A DNA stretch of 64,000 nucleotides from Maricaulis sp. (GTDB taxonomy: Bacteria > Pseudomonadota > Alphaproteobacteria > Caulobacterales > Maricaulaceae). This document shows, in pieces, positions 25,411 through 34,566 of this stretch. Each line of letters starts with the position of its first letter. Position 1 is the first letter of the stretch. The notes beneath the pieces are model-generated. The model worked only from the letters and a program-made list of their open reading frames with translations. It did no database searches and had not been told where the DNA came from. The stretch lies in contig JAEPND010000012.1 in NCBI GenBank assembly GCA_017643585.1, forward strand, positions 20,583-84,582. Reading direction: 5' to 3'. A program made the position numbers and the translations under genes.

Positions 25411-26856
25411 TCATTCGGCGGCGCCAGGCACCGCGTATTGAGGCGCCGGGCGTGCGAAGACACACAGCTCGGATTCCGCGACCGACAGCATTGCCTCAGG
25501 GGTTTCCATAAAGCGTCCGACCATCAACATGGCACATCCATCCCCACCCCATTGCTGGGTTGGACCATGCGCTTCCCCCCTCACGCTGACCACGCGGCTG
25601 TTCGCGAGGGTCTCGGCGGCGCGCAGCCCCCAGGCTGGAGGCGTCAGGGGATCGAACTCTCCCGCGACGATCAGGGTCGGCACTTCGGAAACCACCGGCG
25701 CAATGAACTCGGCGCCCAGCGGCGGCACATCCCAGGCGGCGCAAAGCTCTGGCCGGATCGCGGCGCTTTCATATCCGCCCAGTGCCGGCCCGGCTTGCGA
25801 ACGCCGGCTCCGGTCACTGAAGGGCAAGGCCTCACGGCACCAGACCGACAGGCGCATGCCCCAGGCAAGATTGCTGGCCGCTCTCGGTCTGGACATCACA
25901 CCGGCTATGCCTGGGTCGAGATTTGCAACGGCATCCATCCTGCCCGGAGCTGCGATGACATCGCGTCCCGAAGACAGGACAATCAGCGCGGCCAGGTCGG
26001 CCCCCGTCACAGGTTCGGCAAGACCTTCCATGCGGAACGGGGCACGTGTGGACGCTTCGATCCGATTGAAAAAGCGCGCTTCCAGGTCCGGATAGGCCGC
26101 CGCGCACGCCGGTTGCGCGGCACAATCTGTCGTGATCGCGCGCAGCGCAGCCTCGAAATTCACCGCGCTTTCATCGTCATAAATGGCGTTGGGCGGCAAG
26201 GGTGAATCAAGCACCATGGCCCGCAGGCTCGCGCTGTGATCTCGCGCATATGACAGCGCCAGCCGGGTCCCGTACGACACCGCATAGAGATTCCAACTCT
26301 CGATTTCCAACACCTGGCGCAGATCCTCGAGATCGGCAACGCTGGCCGGGCTGTGGTAGTGCTCCACGCCTATTCCCGCTGCGGTGAGGCGGTCGCGGCA
26401 CTGGCGCACGGCATCGGCGAGATCGCTGCCGGAACTCACCGCATCCCGATACTCTGGGCACATCAAGGCCGGCTGTGCACTGGCAGTTCCGCGCTGACCG
26501 AAAACGATGAAATCCCGGTCTTCCAGCCAGGGGTAGGCGCCCGGATAAGCCGCCGCCGGAAGTCCTGATGCGCCAGGTCCACCGGCGAGATAAAGGACCG
26601 GTTCGCCTCCCCGTCCCGAGCGATTGTGCACGACGGCAACAGGCAGTCTGATCTCCGGGGACCGCGGATCTGTGCGATCCTCTGCGACCACCAGCCAGCC
26701 GCGGGTCGAGGCGAAGGACGATGGCACTTGAACCGGAAAATCCTCACCCGCCGCCACCGGCTCGAACCGGGGCAATGATCGCTGTGGTTCACCGGCAGGT
26801 TGGCACGCCGCCAGCAGGATCAGGAGCCCCAGGGACAAGACGGTCAGACGGCTCAT
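25411..26856 (-). CDS. Lipoprotein alpha/beta hydrolase (S33, TAP-like C terminus)
   Basis: 481 residues from the ATG at 26856 (AGGAGA upstream). The signal peptide ends in lipobox LAAC. The oxyanion motif is 'LAGGPGASG', the nucleophile lies in 'YAVSYGTRLAL' (Ser within AVSYG), the acid in 'VAGEFDPLTPP' and the base in 'RGEAHGPTQ'. This arrangement and the C-terminal block fit secreted tripeptidyl aminopeptidase/proline iminopeptidase-like hydrolases. It would act on peptides or esters at the outer membrane or in the periplasm. Single gene. Confidence 0.88.
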   Translation of the reverse strand: MSRLTVLSLGLLILLAACQPAGEPQRSLPRFEPVAAGEDFPVQVPSSFASTRGWLVVAEDRTDPRSPEIRLPVAVVHNRSGRGGEPVLYLAGGPGASGLPAAAYPGAYPWLEDRDFIVFGQRGTASAQPALMCPEYRDAVSSGSDLADAVRQCRDRLTAAGIGVEHYHSPASVADLEDLRQVLEIESWNLYAVSYGTRLALSYARDHSASLRAMVLDSPLPPNAIYDDESAVNFEAALRAITTDCAAQPACAAAYPDLEARFFNRIEASTRAPFRMEGLAEPVTGADLAALIVLSSGRDVIAAPGRMDAVANLDPGIAGVMSRPRAASNLAWGMRLSVWCREALPFSDRSRRSQAGPALGGYESAAIRPELCAAWDVPPLGAEFIAPVVSEVPTLIVAGEFDPLTPPAWGLRAAETLANSRVVSVRGEAHGPTQQWGGDGCAMLMVGRFMETPEAMLSVAESELCVFARPAPQYAVPGAAE

Positions 26857-27177
26857 GTTTTTCTCCTTGCGACATGTCGAAAACCGCTGTGGTAAAGACG
26901 GGAAACGCACCGACAGGCTAGCTGATCGCCCTTGTAACTCAAGATTTCGAGCGCCGCAGGGTGCCACTCGCTAACAAAACACGACGAAAGCTGTCACTGA
27001 CTATCTGTGAGGGCAAATACTAGGACGGATGGTCGAACCGGGACACAACCATCAACGATGTCCACCAATCAGGCTGATCCCACACGCCGACTGCATGTGA
27101 ATCGAAATTTCATAGCCAAGCAAAAACCCAGGTTTTAGGATTCCCGTATCCCGGCAGAAGGCAATGACAGGCAGCAC
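26857..27177. other. Divergent intergenic region upstream of the six-gene cluster
   Basis: 321 bases, less GC-rich than the flanking genes. The only signal I see is a 5-codon ORF (27164-27181, MTGST) preceded by AGAAGG; its TGA overlaps the start ATG of the next gene. The region should hold the promoter of the cluster, but I cannot place it with confidence. Confidence 0.45.
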
Positions 27178-28185
27178 ATGACAGCTAGCAATGGATCAGC
27201 GGCGATCACGGGCACCGGAATATTCCTGCCGGGCGCGCCGGTCAGATCGGACGAGCTGGATCAACGTCTCGGCATGCCGCGCGGCTGGCTTGAGGACAAA
27301 TGCGGCGTTCAGACCCGCCATTATGCGACCGAAGCCGACAGCCAGGAAAGCATGGGCGTGGCAGCGGCCCGTGCGGCGCTTGCGGATGCGGGTATTGAAC
27401 CGGATGATCTGGATCTTTTGATCTTTTGTGGTGCTGTCGGGCGACAGCCCGTGCCCGCAACCGCGCCACTGATCAAACGGGAGCTTGGACTGTCCGCCCG
27501 GGCCTTCCCGGCCTATGACGTCAACGCGACCTGCCTGGGCACGCTGCTGGGCCTTGACCATGCCGCCATGGCGATCGCCACTGGTCGCGCCAGCACCGTG
27601 CTGGTGGTGGTCTCGGAAATGCCTTCGCAAGCCATTCCGTGGAAACAGGATCCCACTACCGCCGGGCTGTTCGGCGACGGGGCGGCAGCGCTCGTCGTCG
27701 AGGCCGGGAGGGCGGGCGATATGTGCCTGGGCCCCTTGCTGATGGAAACTCATGCGGACGGTTACGAATACTGCCAGGTCGGCTCCGGGGGTACGCGCTA
27801 CAACCCGGTAACCGAGGCCGAGGCCTTCGAGGACAACGCCGTCTTCTCCATGGACGGGAAGGGCGTGTTCAAGCTCTCCTCGAGGACCTTCCCGCGCTTC
27901 CTCGACCAGGTGCTCGACAGAACAGGTTGGTCATTGGGAGAGGTCGATCTTGTCGTGCCCCACCAGGCCAGTCCGCACGCCATATCCCTGATGGTCAAGC
28001 GCTGTGGCATCCGCCCCGAACAGATCTTTGATGTTGCCAAGACCATGGGCAACCAGGTTGCAGCCTCTTTGCCCATCGCCCTGCACCAGGCGCGTCTGGC
28101 CGGGCGCATCCAGTCGGGCATGAAAATCCTGATGGCCGGCACATCGGCGGGTATCTCGCTGGGTGCCATGACCGTGACGACGTGA
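27178..28185 (+). CDS. FabH/OleA-like 3-oxoacyl-ACP synthase III family protein
   Basis: 335 residues, the typical length. The catalytic triad is visible as C119 ('VNATCLGT'), H262 ('VPHQAS') and N292 ('TMGNQVAAS'). These enzymes condense an acyl-CoA with malonyl-ACP, or two acyl-CoAs (OleA). 'GDGAAALVVE' is the usual conserved stretch. It is the first gene of a six-gene unit, and its TGA overlaps the next ATG (TGATG). With an SDR reductase next, the pair resembles OleA/OleD of olefin/beta-lactone lipid biosynthesis, but OleB and OleC are not in the cluster. Not the housekeeping FabH by context. Confidence 0.9.
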   Translation: MTASNGSAAITGTGIFLPGAPVRSDELDQRLGMPRGWLEDKCGVQTRHYATEADSQESMGVAAARAALADAGIEPDDLDLLIFCGAVGRQPVPATAPLIKRELGLSARAFPAYDVNATCLGTLLGLDHAAMAIATGRASTVLVVVSEMPSQAIPWKQDPTTAGLFGDGAAALVVEAGRAGDMCLGPLLMETHADGYEYCQVGSGGTRYNPVTEAEAFEDNAVFSMDGKGVFKLSSRTFPRFLDQVLDRTGWSLGEVDLVVPHQASPHAISLMVKRCGIRPEQIFDVAKTMGNQVAASLPIALHQARLAGRIQSGMKILMAGTSAGISLGAMTVTT

Positions 28186-29162
28186 TGATGCAGACGATCT
28201 GGGTCACCGGTGCGACCGGGTTTCTGGGCGGCCGGGTGGTCGAGGACTTGCTGGAGAGTGGCCATACGGTCATCGCCAGCGGTCGCCAGACCTATGTCCT
28301 CGATCGGTTGCAGAAAAAGGGCGCCCGGACACTCGCCTTCGATCTTGCCGATCCGACCCCGCCTGACCTGCCGGCGGTGGACGCGGTTGTGCACTGCGCC
28401 GCGCTGTCCAGTCCCTGGGGCCGTTATGCAGACTTTCACCGTGCCAATGTCATTGGCACACGATCCGCGCTGAAGCTGGCCCGGCAGGCGGGCGCGCAAC
28501 GCTTCGTCCACATCTCCACGCCCAGCGTCTATTTTCGTTTTCGCGACCAGTTGGACGTCCACGAAACACAGCCCCTGCCATCGCCGGTCAATGCCTATGC
28601 CGCCACCAAGGCCCGGGCCGAACAAGAGGTGCTGGCGCAGGAGGCGCTCGACCCGGTCATCCTGCGGCCGCGCGGGCTGTACGGGCGCGGCGACACTGCC
28701 CTGCTCCCACGCCTGATGGCGGCGGCCCGGGAACGTCCGCTGCCCCTGATGAACAAGGGTGAGACGGTCACCGATCTGACCCATGTCGACGATGTTGTTT
28801 CAGCGGTTCGCGCAGCGCTCGATCTCGCACCTGCCCCGACACAACGCCTGTTCAACATCTCGGGTGGGGAAGCCCTCAAGCTGAAATCCGTCACGGAAGA
28901 GGCGGGACGACGCGCCGGTGTCCCGGTCCGCTGGCGCCCGGTCCCCAGCTGGGCGGCGTTGACGTATGCACGCGGCCTGGAAACGATTGCTCGGATAAGT
29001 CCCGGTTACCCGGAACCGCGGATCACCGCCTATGGAGTCGGTCTGTTCGCCTACAGCCAGACGCTCGACATTTCCGCGGCGCGGGAGGTGCTGGGATGGA
29101 CACCCAGGATCAACATTCAAGAGGGCCTGGGCCGCACCTTTTGCGAGGACACCGACGGATGA
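28185..29162 (+). CDS. NAD(P)-dependent SDR epimerase/dehydratase (OleD/3-beta-HSD-like)
   Basis: 325 residues. TGATGFLG at residues 8-15 is the extended-SDR cofactor motif, and Y138-A-A-T-K142 is the catalytic YxxxK with the Ser/Thr of 'HISTPSVYF' before it. It probably reduces a beta-keto group made by the preceding condensing enzyme, by analogy with OleD; that step is inferred. The start is placed at the ATG overlapping the upstream TGA; a GTG at 28182 and an ATG at 28188 are alternatives. Confidence 0.9.
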   Translation: MMQTIWVTGATGFLGGRVVEDLLESGHTVIASGRQTYVLDRLQKKGARTLAFDLADPTPPDLPAVDAVVHCAALSSPWGRYADFHRANVIGTRSALKLARQAGAQRFVHISTPSVYFRFRDQLDVHETQPLPSPVNAYAATKARAEQEVLAQEALDPVILRPRGLYGRGDTALLPRLMAAARERPLPLMNKGETVTDLTHVDDVVSAVRAALDLAPAPTQRLFNISGGEALKLKSVTEEAGRRAGVPVRWRPVPSWAALTYARGLETIARISPGYPEPRITAYGVGLFAYSQTLDISAAREVLGWTPRINIQEGLGRTFCEDTDG

Positions 29163-29929
29163 TGCCCAGCTTCCCCGACAGCGCCACGGTGCGCGCTCCA
29201 GAGCGGTTGGTGCTTCGCGGTGGTCGCTGGACAAGCCTCGACCTGACCGTGCGTTACGGGCGTTTCGAACATCCCGAGGCGGGCACTTGCCTGATCGATA
29301 CGGGTTACACCTCGCGGGTGACCCGGGGCCGGCGCTCCTTCGCCCTGCGCGTCTATAACGCACTGCTCAAGCCCGAACTGTCCGCCGATGCCCTGCCTGC
29401 AGCCTGCCCAAAGGTCGACACCATTCTGCTCAGCCACCTGCATGCCGACCATGTGTCCGGACTGCGTGATTATCCGAAGGCAAGGATCTATGCCCATGGC
29501 GGCAGTGTGGACCATTTCATCCGGGCCAGCTGGCTGCATCGATCGACCCACGGGGTTTTTGCGGAACTGCTTCCCGATGACCTTGCAGACCGGATGATCC
29601 GGTTCGAGGACCTGCCGATCGTTTCGGCCCCCTTGGGCCTGGGCCACGCCTACGACATCTTCGGTGATCAGAGCTTGCTGGCCGTGCCACTGCCCGGGCA
29701 CATGCTCGGACATATGGGCTTTTGCTGGCCGGTGCCGGACAAGCCCATCCTCTATGCTGCCGACGCGCAATGGCTCCACCAGGCGGCAGTCGAGGGCACT
29801 CTGCCACCGCCACCCGCGCGCTGGATCCTGCATGATCCAAAAGCGGCGCTGGCCACCTCGGCGCGCATCGCCGACTTCGCACGCCAGGGCGGCCGGGTCA
29901 TTTATTGCCACGATCCGGAGGCCGTGTGA
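29159..29929 (+). CDS. Metallo-beta-lactamase-fold hydrolase
   Basis: 256 residues. H93-L-H95-A-D97-H98 ('LSHLHADHVSG') is the binuclear metal motif. 'PLPGHMLGHMGF', 'YAADAQW' and 'YCHDPE' supply the later His and Asp ligands. The fold hydrolyses esters, thioesters, lactones or phosphodiesters; here a thioesterase or lactonase role is a guess from context. ATG 29159 or 29162 overlaps the upstream TGA; the gene's own TGA overlaps the next ATG. Confidence 0.88.
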   Translation: MMPSFPDSATVRAPERLVLRGGRWTSLDLTVRYGRFEHPEAGTCLIDTGYTSRVTRGRRSFALRVYNALLKPELSADALPAACPKVDTILLSHLHADHVSGLRDYPKARIYAHGGSVDHFIRASWLHRSTHGVFAELLPDDLADRMIRFEDLPIVSAPLGLGHAYDIFGDQSLLAVPLPGHMLGHMGFCWPVPDKPILYAADAQWLHQAAVEGTLPPPPARWILHDPKAALATSARIADFARQGGRVIYCHDPEAV

Positions 29930-31212
29930 TGGCGCGGACGTCCGCCAGAATCCTGCTGGAAACCGCCCGGACCTGGCTGCAAACCCGCTGGCGTGCATCG
30001 CGCCTGGTGTCCCGCAGAGCAATCGAACAGCATCGGGAGCGACAACTCGGACGTTTCCTGAAAGAGGTCGCGCCGCGAGCAGAGGCCTTCCGTGATCTGG
30101 CCGGCCAGCCGCTGGAGGACTTCCCGCGCATGGACAAGGCCAGGCTGATGGCCGGGTTTCATCGCTATAACCGCTTCGGGATCAGGGCCGAGGATGCCTG
30201 GGCGGCCATGGCGCGCGGCGAGACGCTGCACGGCTGCCATGTCGGCGCCAGCACAGGCACGAGCGGCAATCGCGGCCTCTACCTGGTCAACCCGATGGAG
30301 CGGGCACGCTGGCTGGGCGTGATGCTGGCCAAGACCGGTATCGATATCCTTCGCACCCGACAGCGTGTCGCCATCCTTCTGCCCACCAACAGCCAGCTCT
30401 ATGAAACCGCCAATGAAAGCGGGCGGCTCCGGCTGGTCTTCTTTGATCTAAATGAGGGGGTTGCCGCTCACGCGGAGGCCCTGTCCAGCTTCGACCCGAC
30501 CGTGCTGGTCGCCACACCTCACGTGCTTAGCTTGCTGGCCGAGATGGATATCGCGCTGAACCCCGAGGTGATCTTTTCCGGCGCGGAGGTACTCGACCCC
30601 ACGGATCGCAGGACGATCGAAACCCGCTTCCAGCGCACCGTGCGCGAAATCTATATGGCGACCGAGGGCCTGTTCGCGGTCGCCTGTTCCCATGGCCGCC
30701 TGCATCTCACCGAGGATATGATGGCGTTCGAATGGGACAGCCAGCCGGACCTGCCCGGACTGCTTGCCCCGGTGATCACGGACTTCTCGCGCACCTCCCA
30801 GATGATGGTGCGCTATCAGATGAATGACCTCCTGCGCCTCGCCGACACGCCCTGCCCCTGCGGATCAGCTTTGCAGGCAGTCGACGAGATTGTCGGGCGA
30901 CGCGATGACATTTTCGACCTGCCGGGCACGGTTGGCCGCATCCCGGTCACCCCGGATATCATCCGCAATGCGATCATTCGCACCAGCCCGCGCATCGAGG
31001 ATTTCCGCGTCACCCAGACCGGCGCGGCCGAGATCGCCCTGGTCCTGCCCGAGGACTGTGCGGATTTGACGGGCGATGCGGCACAGGCGCTGAACACATT
31101 GTTCGCCCGGTTGGGGGCAAACGCCGACATCACCGCACATGCCGCCCCGCTGGTCAGCCCGCAGACCCGCAAGCTCCGCCGGGTTGTGCGCGAATGGCGG
31201 GGACCGGCATGA
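29929..31212 (+). CDS. Adenylate-forming enzyme, F390-synthetase/PaaK-like
   Basis: 427 residues, shorter than standard acyl-CoA synthetases and like the PaaK/F390-synthetase branch. 'GASTGTSGNRGLYLV' (residues 106-120) is the ATP-binding P-loop. 'FSGAEVLDP', 'IYMATEG' and 'RYQMNDLLRL' follow in the expected order, and 'CPCGS' is a Cys pair typical of this branch. It presumably activates a carboxylate as acyl-AMP for the pathway; the substrate is unknown. The ATG overlaps the upstream stop (TGATG), and the next gene starts inside this gene's stop (ATGA). Confidence 0.88.
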   Translation: MARTSARILLETARTWLQTRWRASRLVSRRAIEQHRERQLGRFLKEVAPRAEAFRDLAGQPLEDFPRMDKARLMAGFHRYNRFGIRAEDAWAAMARGETLHGCHVGASTGTSGNRGLYLVNPMERARWLGVMLAKTGIDILRTRQRVAILLPTNSQLYETANESGRLRLVFFDLNEGVAAHAEALSSFDPTVLVATPHVLSLLAEMDIALNPEVIFSGAEVLDPTDRRTIETRFQRTVREIYMATEGLFAVACSHGRLHLTEDMMAFEWDSQPDLPGLLAPVITDFSRTSQMMVRYQMNDLLRLADTPCPCGSALQAVDEIVGRRDDIFDLPGTVGRIPVTPDIIRNAIIRTSPRIEDFRVTQTGAAEIALVLPEDCADLTGDAAQALNTLFARLGANADITAHAAPLVSPQTRKLRRVVREWRGPA

Positions 31213-32186
31213 AGAAATCCGCCTGGTATCCCGTCGCTGCGACACGCGACCTGCGCGCTGGTCCCGCAAAGGCCCAGCTGTTCGGGACGCCGCTTGTCAT
31301 CTGGCGAGGCGAGGACGGTTACGGCGCACTGGCCGACATCTGCCCGCACCGCGGGGCGCCGCTGTCGGAAGGGTGCGTAGACAAGGCCGCGATCACCTGC
31401 CCCTATCACGGATGGCGCTTTGGCCCTGACGGGCAGTGCGTGGCGATGCCGGCCCTGGCGGAAACACCATCCCGCATCCGCGCCCAGGCCTTTGCGGCCG
31501 CGGAACATGACGGGCTGGTCTTCGTCCAGATGGAAGCCTCGAGGCACGACTTTGCACCGCCCCCGCCGCAGCAGGACATTGCGTCTGCAACGCGCGAGGA
31601 CTCGGTTACCATTCGGGCGTCGCTGGCCGACATGGCGGAGAATATCCTGGACACCACTCATACCTCTGTCGTGCACGCCGGCTATCTGCGCCAGGCCACC
31701 CGGCGTCAACTCGTCCAGCCCGAAGTGCGCTGCGGGGCGGACTGGATCGAGGTCGTCTATCCGGAAAGCGCCACGCCCAGCGGCCTGGTCTCCCGCCTGT
31801 TCGGGACGGATTGTTACGAGATCACCGACCGGTTTCGCGCCCCCGGCATTGCCGAGGTGGAATACCGGTGCAACGGTCGGATCGAATTTGCCTCGCGCTT
31901 TTACCTCTCCCCTGCCAGCGATAACGAAACCCGGATTTTCTCCAGGCTCTCCATTCGCGGAACTTCGCTGTTGTCCCAGCTGAAAGTCTCCATTGTCCGG
32001 GCCATGCTGCGCCGGGTGGTGTCCGAGGACGAGGAGATACTGGGCCTGGTGACCGACAACGTCGAACGCTTTGGACGCCGTCCCGGTCTCATCGCTCCGC
32101 AGGACTTCCTGCGTGCGGGCATCGACGCCATCCTGCGCGGTGAGGCGCCAGAGCGGCCCGACCACGTCCCGCAGATCTACGTGTGA
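31209..32186 (+). CDS. Rieske non-heme iron oxygenase
   Basis: 325 residues. The Rieske [2Fe-2S] cluster ligands are C45-P-H47 and C64-P-Y-H67. The mononuclear iron site is D148-T-T-H151-x4-H156 in 'ENILDTTHTSVVH'. It belongs with single-component alpha subunits such as VanA or sterol/chlorophyll-type oxygenases. It would hydroxylate, desaturate or demethylate a pathway intermediate. No dedicated ferredoxin or reductase is adjacent, so electrons must come from elsewhere. The start overlaps the stop of the adenylating enzyme by 4 bases. Confidence 0.92.
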   Translation: MKKSAWYPVAATRDLRAGPAKAQLFGTPLVIWRGEDGYGALADICPHRGAPLSEGCVDKAAITCPYHGWRFGPDGQCVAMPALAETPSRIRAQAFAAAEHDGLVFVQMEASRHDFAPPPPQQDIASATREDSVTIRASLADMAENILDTTHTSVVHAGYLRQATRRQLVQPEVRCGADWIEVVYPESATPSGLVSRLFGTDCYEITDRFRAPGIAEVEYRCNGRIEFASRFYLSPASDNETRIFSRLSIRGTSLLSQLKVSIVRAMLRRVVSEDEEILGLVTDNVERFGRRPGLIAPQDFLRAGIDAILRGEAPERPDHVPQIYV

Positions 32187-32193
32187 GACCGCG

Positions 32194-33273
32194 ATGTCAT
32201 TTGCCACGAGCCTGAACTTCACCTCGTCGAATGAGGATGGCCGCACCGAGCTGGCGGCACTCGCCCTGTCACCGGATGATCGCGTGCTCTGCCTCACGGC
32301 CAGTGGCACCCGGCCGCTTGATCTCCTGTTGGGAGATCCCGGCGACATCCTCGCCATCGACATCAACCCGGCCCAGAACCATCTTCTGAGGCTCAAAATC
32401 GCGGCCTTCAAAACCCTGTCCGATGACGAGTTATATGCCTATCTGGGGCTTGAGCAGACAGCAGACCGGCTGGCCATACATGCCCGGGTCGAAACCGCAT
32501 TGTCAGAGGACGCGCGCCGGTTCTGGAGCGCGAGAACGGCGGTCATCCGCAAAGGTGTCTGGAAAACCGGGCGATGGGAACGGGTCTTGCGTTTCCTGGC
32601 GGGCATACTGCGCCTGGTCAGGGGCCGCCGGCTCGATCAGCTTTTTGCGGCCCGGACGGTCGAGGAACAACATCAGATCTGGCTGGAGCATTTCGAGGAT
32701 GCCTTCTGGAAATCCAGTATTCACCTGCTCTCCAGCCGCTTCTTCTGGACCCATGTCATCGGCGAGCCGGGCGGACAATTCCTGCCTGACCGCACCGAAA
32801 CCACCCGGCGCCTGACTGCGGCCTTCCACAATGCCAGCAAACATTTCCTCTTCAGCCAGTCCGATTTCGCGACCCTGATCTTTCTGGGCCAGCACACATC
32901 CAGCAGCGCTCTGCCTGTACACCTGCAGCGCGCCAATCTCGCGCTTGTGCGCGACCGCCTGGATCGGATCCAGATCGCCGATATCGACCTCGCCGCTCTG
33001 GAGTCTGATCAGTACGGAAGCTTTTCGGCCTTTTCGCTGTCCGATTTCGGTTCCTACTGCACGCCTCAAGCCTATGCGGCGTGCTGGGATGGCGTGCTGA
33101 AAACCGCCCGACCTGGCGCGCGCTTCTGCGAACGCGCCTTCATGAACCCGCTCGCCCTGCCGACCGCGTTCGAACACCGGATATCCCTGGACAACTCCCT
33201 GTCAGACCAGCTCTCCACCCGCGACCGAGCGATCATCTATGACATCCGCGCCGGACGGCTGGATTGCAGCTAG
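32194..33273 (+). CDS. DUF3419 (BtaA-like) SAM-dependent transferase
   Basis: 359 residues from the ATG at 32194, 7 bases after the Rieske stop. 'VLCLTASGTRPLDLLLGDP' and 'ILAIDINPAQNHLLRLKIAA' are the SAM-site sequences of DUF3419/BtaA. BtaA transfers the 3-amino-3-carboxypropyl group of SAM to diacylglycerol in betaine lipid synthesis. No BtaB-like N-methyltransferase is adjacent, so the product need not be a classic betaine lipid. As last gene of the unit it may attach a headgroup to the lipid made by the upstream enzymes (inference). Confidence 0.85.
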   Translation: MSFATSLNFTSSNEDGRTELAALALSPDDRVLCLTASGTRPLDLLLGDPGDILAIDINPAQNHLLRLKIAAFKTLSDDELYAYLGLEQTADRLAIHARVETALSEDARRFWSARTAVIRKGVWKTGRWERVLRFLAGILRLVRGRRLDQLFAARTVEEQHQIWLEHFEDAFWKSSIHLLSSRFFWTHVIGEPGGQFLPDRTETTRRLTAAFHNASKHFLFSQSDFATLIFLGQHTSSSALPVHLQRANLALVRDRLDRIQIADIDLAALESDQYGSFSAFSLSDFGSYCTPQAYAACWDGVLKTARPGARFCERAFMNPLALPTAFEHRISLDNSLSDQLSTRDRAIIYDIRAGRLDCS

Positions 33274-33353: not shown

Positions 33354-34280
33354 TCAATCCGCAAGCTGTTGATCGATGAACTCCAGCATCAGCGTCCGCG
33401 CTGGCGACGGTGCATCGGGCTCGATCATTTCGTAGTAGAGCGACGCATGGGTCTCCTCGTTGAAGGCTTCGAACCGCACGAGGTCACGCATGGAACTCGC
33501 GTCGACCAGGCTTTGGAAATGATCGGCATAGATGACGCTCTGACCTTCGGAGATCACCAGCATCGGCGTGTCCGACTGCTCGAGATAGCTGGCCGGAGAC
33601 GCGGCGGCATGGCCAGGCCGCGGACCGAAGACGCCAACGACATGGTCCTGTGCAGCCTGCGCCCCGAGACCGTCGTTGATCATGCGAAAATAATGTTCGA
33701 CATCATAGGTTCCCCCGACCGGGATCGCGCCGCGAATGGCGTCGTCGGATAATCCCTCAGCAATCAGGTACCGCTCATCGGTCGCAAGCAGAGCCGAAAG
33801 ATGTCCGCCGGCGGAAAACCCGCTGACAAACAACGTCTCTCGATCAAGACCGTGCTCGGGCGCATGGGTCCACAGCCAGGCAAAGGCGCGTGCGACATCC
33901 TCGATATGCGCCGGATGCTGGACGCCGGTGTCGGGCAGGTTTTCCGACATCCATCGCCCCGGACTCAAGCGATATGACATGACTGCAACAGCAATGCCTT
34001 CGGCTGCCAGGGCTTGCGCCAGTCCCATTTCATCCGCTCTGCCGCCAGCCGCCCAGGCGCCACCATGAATCCACAACACCGTCGCCCGCGCTGCCCCGTC
34101 CGCCGGGAGCACGAGATTTAACGCGTGACGCTCCGGGTCGGCATCCGCTCCGTCGTAGTAAGCGATGTCATTCAGAACCCGGGCTGAAGGGGCTTCCGCG
34201 GTGTCTTGCAGGGCATGCGCCATAGGTGTTGCGGTCGGGGCGGCGGTGCCCAGTGCGAACACCAACATCAGGGACTTCAT
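33354..34280 (-). CDS. Secreted alpha/beta hydrolase (carboxylesterase/HSL-like)
   Basis: 308 residues; ATG with AAGGAAG upstream. A signal peptide ends near PMAHA. 'WIHGGAWAAGG' is the HGGxW oxyanion motif, and 'FVSGFSAGGHLSA' holds the nucleophile Ser in GFSAG. 'ETHASLYYEM' may hold the catalytic His. It is predicted to be a periplasmic esterase. It is convergent with the biosynthetic cluster and may or may not be linked to it. Confidence 0.87.
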   Translation of the reverse strand: MKSLMLVFALGTAAPTATPMAHALQDTAEAPSARVLNDIAYYDGADADPERHALNLVLPADGAARATVLWIHGGAWAAGGRADEMGLAQALAAEGIAVAVMSYRLSPGRWMSENLPDTGVQHPAHIEDVARAFAWLWTHAPEHGLDRETLFVSGFSAGGHLSALLATDERYLIAEGLSDDAIRGAIPVGGTYDVEHYFRMINDGLGAQAAQDHVVGVFGPRPGHAAASPASYLEQSDTPMLVISEGQSVIYADHFQSLVDASSMRDLVRFEAFNEETHASLYYEMIEPDAPSPARTLMLEFIDQQLAD

Positions 34281-34476: not shown

Positions 34477-34566
34477 TGGCGGAGAGAGAGGGATTCGAAC
34501 CCTCGGAACGCTTGCGCGCTCAACGGTTTTCGAGACCGCCCCGTTCGACCACTCCGGCACCTCTCC
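34477..34566 (-). tRNA. tRNA-Ser (anticodon CGA), reads UCG
   Basis: 90 bases including an encoded CCA. The acceptor stem is GGAGAGG/TCTCTCC, the anticodon loop CTCGAAA, the class II variable arm TTGAGCGCGCAAGCGTTCC, and the T arm GAGGGTTCGAATCCCTC. All arms pair. Confidence 0.97.

Follow-up and report, generated by a model that had tools for sequence, protein, structure and literature searches.

What does a compact run of six genes make when its members recall enzymes of several known pathways? The question is raised by a cluster in Maricaulis sp., carried on a stretch of 64,000 nucleotides of contig JAEPND010000012.1, hereafter the window. The six genes, A to F, are intact open reading frames (ORFs) without internal stops, all on the plus strand and head to tail at positions 27178-33273. 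Their junctions read TGATG (A/B), ATGATG (B/C), TGATG (C/D) and ATGA (D/E), with a 7-base gap between E and F, so that the arrangement described in the initial annotation of this DNA, which was made from the letters alone, is borne out. That annotation also proposed to look for the same order in other genomes, and this check recovered ABCDEF in 8 of 53 related loci, which supports an operon-like biosynthetic unit. The unit consists of a four-gene core, A-B-C-D, and a two-gene tail, E-F, rather than six equal genes. The cluster is real and conserved, and it belongs to a larger family than the initial annotation could see. No description of the core or of the six-gene set, and no characterised pathway with exactly this set, was found in the literature searched, which was open-access only and gives no proof of absence.

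Gene A (27178..28185, 335 residues) encodes a condensing enzyme resembling FabH and the other beta-ketoacyl-ACP synthases III (KAS III). Its best NCBIfam model is PRK07204 (beta-ketoacyl-ACP synthase III), with 292.5 bits, under the cut-off of 402, and it scores 203.1 bits against TIGR00747 (fabH), under the cut-off of 292.1. The catalytic triad C119/H262/N292 is invariant in 16 aligned proteins, the one from the window included. Among solved structures, A matches 3h76, an enzyme of Pseudomonas quinolone signal (PQS) biosynthesis, with an E-value of 2.1e-30, and FabH and CorB entries score higher. A had been called FabH/OleA-like, and only the first half of this name can be kept. Both reference OleAs exhibit a glutamate in the motif LEPST, which we take to be the catalytic base of OleA, and the window protein and five related core proteins aligned with it exhibit Val, Ile or Leu at that position; an OleA-type condensation is thus not supported.

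Gene B (28185..29162, 325 residues) encodes an extended short-chain dehydrogenase/reductase (SDR) of the epimerase family, with the motifs GATGFLG and YAATK. Its nearest curated model is that of OleD (NF042422), at 176.9 bits and thus far under the cut-off of 580, and it shares 32-34% identity with two OleDs and one OleD-like protein. Gene C (29159..29929, 256 residues) encodes a hydrolase of the metallo-beta-lactamase (MBL) fold with the motif HLHADH and weak matches to lactonase models; residues H93, H95, D97, H98, H181, D202 and H251 are invariant in 18 aligned proteins. Gene D (29929..31212, 427 residues) encodes a PaaK-like adenylate-forming enzyme, which exhibits the motifs STGTSG, YMATEG and PCPCGS and is a member of TIGR02304, 'F390 synthetase-related', with 276.5 bits for a curated cut-off of 251.9. 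In the passages of the literature where 'F390 synthetase' is named, it appears as a table entry, as a candidate phenol-degradation protein or as a guess in ladderane-lipid synthesis.

The distribution of the core was examined by scanning genome contigs with an alignment of nine D proteins, which yielded the 53 loci. This number is a lower bound, because candidates needed one of two exact peptide patterns. A to F and three further families were mapped onto these loci. Besides the window, A, B, C and D are all present in 45 of the 53, and in 26 they are contiguous and in this order. The loci without the full core are L063, L071, L073, L095, L096, L099, L101 and L102; several of these come from short or truncated stretches, and that of L102, in an archaeal metagenome-assembled genome (MAG), is a match of 26%. 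The closest named relative of the window D in the scan belongs to Maricaulis sp. HCUG1439-2 (93% identity). D was found in 27 of 299 genomes of the order that were drawn separately. TIGR02304 was matched above its cut-off in 7 of 398 genomes of the phylum, that of the window included; in the class, 38 of 289 genomes gave matches at an E-value of 0.001, mostly PaaK-like background, and the only one above the cut-off was the window's own. By annotation, the core also occurs on plasmids of Rhizobium, Shinella, Ketogulonicigenium, Paracoccus, Paraburkholderia, Pseudomonas, Pontibacillus and Paenibacillus; the plasmids of Pontibacillus and Paenibacillus, which are Bacillota, carry an ATP-grasp gene between A and B. 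A plasmid of P. amygdali carries a D-like gene without an annotated core around it, and D-like matches were also observed on two plasmid records without annotation, from Fusobacterium and Burkholderia. A search of phages gave one weak, partial match only, for D.

The core is also found in Escherichia coli, between narI and a tRNA-Tyr gene, in CFT073 and other genomes. The same four families occur there in the same order as in the window, with identities of 34% for A, 37% for B, 30% for C and 34% for D, and downstream of them PAP2, FA_hydroxylase and FA_desaturase genes take the place of the Rieske and DUF3419 genes of the window. The DNA of this seven-gene locus (4203-11084 in L115 and 6001-12882 in L119) was matched in 672 of 5426 genomes, about one eighth of the complete E. 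coli genomes, and in 671 of these over at least 80% of the query. No description of it was found in the literature searched. A conserved and unexplained core, present in this share of E. coli genomes and in distant bacteria, becomes one testable family.

The initial annotation had read the six genes as one pathway. That this pathway is indivisible is not supported, since A-D is widespread in the absence of E-F, which is itself only one among several interchangeable endings. The eight ABCDEF loci (L050, L052, L053, L054, L055, L057, L062 and L082) are labelled Maricaulis (one), Hyphomonas (four), Hyphomonadaceae (two) and Candidatus Sulfopaludibacter (one). The order A-B-C-D-glycosyltransferase is observed in 14 of the 53 loci. 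Counted by family, E-type genes occur in 31 loci, GNAT-like genes in 22, ATP-grasp genes in 19 and F in 11; the three families Rieske (E-type), GNAT-like and ATP-grasp occur together in 18 of the 31 loci that have neither the E-F nor the glycosyltransferase ending. Loci of the Sphingomonas/Caulobacter type have D pointing away from E-N-H-C-B-A, where N-H is the GNAT-like/ATP-grasp pair, and in L091 F occupies the exact place of this pair. A Rhizobium plasmid has the order A-B-C-D-F followed by an unnamed protein, and in Ketogulonicigenium and Paracoccus sulfotransferase and TetR genes are divergent from A. As the same core has varied endings, we read it as making a common scaffold for which the last genes would pick the head group; one core with exchangeable last steps is the main argument for such a design. 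The E-F, glycosyltransferase, ATP-grasp and sulfotransferase variants offer ready-made hints as to where the head group is placed.

A tree of D was built with 60 rows. Duplicates, L099, L101, L102 and proteins shorter than 350 residues were omitted from it, and long branches were flagged. All 16 rows with a glycosyltransferase ending form one clade (96/94). A different clade (100/98) holds the ATP-grasp/GNAT rows together with the other F types. The tree does not resolve the window pair and the Hyphomonas-type EF group as sisters, and because F endings are scattered and long branches were flagged as well, it does not establish a single origin of the EF ending. Within this tree, the contig of L055 clusters closely with Hyphomonadaceae although its label is Candidatus Sulfopaludibacter (Acidobacteriota), and it is probably a misassigned MAG contig.

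The ratio of nonsynonymous to synonymous substitution rates (dN/dS, NG86 method) was 0.064-0.252 across the six genes, with six pairs for each; most dS values of the two most distant pairs exceed 1, which makes the ratios there rough. With ratios this low, all six genes are maintained in the window and its relatives. The gene order is not a matter of chance, because ABCDEF recurs in eight loci and dN/dS is low for all six genes.

Concerning the tail, gene E (31209..32186, 325 residues) encodes an alpha-type Rieske non-heme iron oxygenase with matches to Rieske PF00355 and VanA_C. Like SxtT, DdmC and their kin, it has both metal-site motifs: the [2Fe-2S] site CxH-x(n)-CxxH at residue 45 (CPHR..CPYH) and the mononuclear iron site D-x2-H-x4-H with a distal Asp, whose residues D148, H151, H156 and D274 are invariant in 13 aligned proteins. 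Its best solved matches are SxtDIOX/SxtT and the dicamba monooxygenase DdmC. The catalytic motifs that had been read as intact in A to E are therefore all found: the triad of A, the motifs of B, C and D, and both metal sites of E.

Gene F (32194..33273, 359 residues) encodes a DUF3419/BtaA-like protein, which matches PF11899 (DUF3419) with 200.1 bits for a gathering score of 28.2 and exhibits the motifs DINP and LSDFGSY. It is the sole DUF3419 match in the genome of the window, and no solved relative was found by sequence at an E-value of 1. As a presumed BtaA-BtaB reference, we used a DUF3419 gene lying beside a methyltransferase gene on a Rhizobium plasmid. F shares E14-D15, G38, D56, D284, D344 and Y349 with this presumed BtaA. 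From these similarities, F probably works like BtaA, as an S-adenosylmethionine (SAM)-dependent 3-amino-3-carboxypropyl transferase, and the tail E-F probably adds a homoserine-like head group.

DUF3419 genes were also observed in other settings. L072 and L080 each have two different DUF3419 genes in the cluster region, one of the window type and one with WYxAxNEDG and LSDYSSYC motifs. On a Roseinatronobacter plasmid (L127, 523-8507), a DUF3419 gene lies in a different cluster, together with UbiA prenyltransferase, PEP/pyruvate-binding and AMP-binding genes. Deinobacterium chartae is the only control genome above the DUF3419 cut-off, and also the one control genome above the TIGR02304 cut-off in the phylum search.

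Based on these families, we propose that A-F forms a short assembly line whose product is a polar acyl compound resembling a lipid, with a core that makes the scaffold and head groups that can be swapped, a proposal to which we give about an even chance. A would join an activated acyl group to a malonyl thioester by decarboxylative Claisen condensation, C would hydrolyse the resulting thioester, or a lactone, and B would reduce the 3-keto group to a hydroxyl. D would adenylate a carboxylic acid so that it can form a thioester or be ligated; this acid could be the starter or the finished hydroxy acid. E, where it has its Rieske cluster as in the window, would hydroxylate the scaffold, and F would transfer the 3-amino-3-carboxypropyl group of SAM to a hydroxyl, which would produce a head group of the homoserine type. 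A glycosyltransferase, or ATP-grasp and GNAT enzymes, would complete the core product in relatives, and some cores adjoin a sulfotransferase. Every reaction, their order and the product are inferred here from protein families. The initial annotation had likewise suggested a lipid-like product, which remains plausible because PAP2, fatty-acid hydroxylase and desaturase genes accompany the E. coli core; the oxidation that it included is doubtful as a conserved step.

Several observations weigh against this proposal. The solved structures nearest to D are PaaK-type ligases, which act on aromatic acids, and this kinship points away from a fatty substrate. C fits lactonase models better than thioesterase-type models, so that its proposed role is tentative. 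A family search of A to F revealed no carrier protein among the six. F shares only 24% identity with the presumed BtaA, and F endings are spread over more than one part of the D tree. A genome of the order that is 63% complete (G934) carries E-F on a contig of 3.2 kb with no core gene, where it adjoins an aspartyl-tRNA-synthetase-like gene, as named from its sequence. Finally, the [2Fe-2S] site is missing from E in all seven complete Hyphomonas-type copies, which makes oxidation doubtful as a fixed step.

These seven copies (L052, L053, L054, L055, L057, L062 and L082, of which three bear the label Hyphomonadaceae or Sulfopaludibacter) are 283-284 residues long instead of 325, and unlike SxtT, DdmC and their kin they have lost the CPHR...CPYHGW stretch. 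They retain D-x2-EN-x2-D-x2-H-x4-H and the distal Asp. The partial E of L063 likewise has no such stretch. The E of L052 has a VanA_C match and no PF00355 match at an E-value of 0.001, and a six-frame pattern scan of the seven loci revealed no other Rieske motif. In five pairs, dN/dS was 0.084-0.178 for the catalytic part and 0.255-0.439 for the N-terminal remnant, which argues that the catalytic domain has remained constrained after the loss of the Rieske site. Among the 299 genomes of the order there are 13 E-like matches; 10 keep the Rieske motif, G934 and the window among them, and the three that are Rieske-free (G357, G473 and G913) are taken to be L082, L057 and L052 again. No Rieske oxygenase lacking its Rieske domain was found in the literature searched, as judged by titles. 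The Rieske-free E is a natural experiment on what a mononuclear-iron domain does without the cluster thought to supply its electrons. A bolder form of our proposal is that A-D stands for an undescribed class of polar lipids, present in Alphaproteobacteria, E. coli and Bacillota, with head groups changed by gene swap, and that the Hyphomonas-type E is a working Rieske-free mononuclear-iron enzyme; we advance it only tentatively, as possible rather than likely. The cluster merits bench work on account of the core in E. coli, the exchange of endings and the Rieske-free E.

Three other explanations were weighed against the assembly line. The combination of an adenylating enzyme, a KAS III and an MBL hydrolase recalls PqsA, PqsD and PqsE of the Pseudomonas quinolone pathway, in which PqsE hydrolyses a thioester. 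By analogy, the product could be a small aromatic or signal molecule, for which D would activate an aromatic acid, A would extend it, C would hydrolyse the thioester and the tail would decorate the result. The phenylacetate-CoA-ligase-type relatives of D, the match of A to 3h76 and the lactonase-like matches of C, an MBL enzyme, are consistent with this. The best match of A is not PqsD, however, and unlike the Pqs system the window has a D of the PaaK/TIGR02304 type, an extra SDR and other tailoring genes. As the E. coli version contains fatty-acid desaturase, fatty-acid hydroxylase and PAP2 genes, and F comes from the family of a lipid head-group enzyme, we consider such a molecule unlikely. 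The OleABCD pathway to long-chain olefins and beta-lactones likewise combines a KAS III-like enzyme, an OleD-like SDR and an adenylate-forming enzyme, so that an Ole-type route with replaced parts could be imagined: A and B would make a 2-alkyl-3-hydroxy acid, D would close the beta-lactone, and C would open or decarboxylate it. OleD being the best curated model of B, together with its identity to the OleD proteins, favours this route. For comparison, an OleD search gave 10 of 299 genomes at an E-value of 1e-100, 4 of them above the cut-off, and three regions were compared. Two of them (L152 and L153) contain an OleA match, an OleD match and, as read from the ORF list, an OleC-like acyl-adenylating ORF; the third (L154) has an OleD-like match only. 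Neither C nor D finds a match at 1e-5 when compared with the ORFs of 200 residues or more in L152 and L153, no OleB or OleC homologue was detected in the cluster, B is far under the OleD cut-off, and A is hydrophobic at the presumed catalytic base. The classical Ole pathway is therefore rejected, and a version of it with replaced parts seems distinctly improbable.

The third explanation is a homoserine (betaine-type) glycerolipid system, in which F would act on diacylglycerol and its neighbours would be unrelated passengers. F resembles the BtaA/BtaB pathway in its PF11899 score, far above the cut-off, and in the invariant residues shared with the presumed BtaA. Moreover, a relative of F was found in 6 of 200 genomes of the order, and two of these relatives (26-31% identity) had no core gene in the stretch fetched. 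Yet a search with one BtaB-type query gave no clear BtaB in the genome of the window, only four weak matches, the best with 30% identity over about 105 residues (E-value of 4.7e-5), and the gene partners differ from those of the BtaA/BtaB pathway. The classical betaine-lipid pathway is rejected because this one-query search gave no clear BtaB. The initial annotation was right that the cluster encodes neither this nor the olefin pathway. F being the only DUF3419 protein of its genome, its presence with the core in 11 loci and in the Rhizobium order A-B-C-D-F, and purifying selection on all six genes argue against passengers, and we regard this explanation as very unlikely. The assembly line with exchangeable head groups is thus the reading that we prefer.

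The unit stands alone, since a divergent peptidase-like ORF (25411-26967, minus strand) and a convergent alpha/beta-hydrolase-like ORF (33354-34280, minus strand), both named from their sequences, flank A-F. The intergenic region between the peptidase-like ORF and A (26968..27177, plus strand) is the presumed site of the operon promoter; a scan for the sigma-70 consensus gave no match there, and scans for promoters and terminators did not exceed the yield from shuffled sequence. The peptidase-like gene next to A occurs in only 2 of 19 Maricaulis genomes, the same two that carry ABCDEF, so the region looks accessory and no empty site can be demonstrated in the other genomes of the genus. Measured per kb, GC content is 0.62-0.66 in the cluster and thus barely higher than in its surroundings, and a tRNA-Ser gene (34477-34566) lies about 1.2 kb past the cluster.

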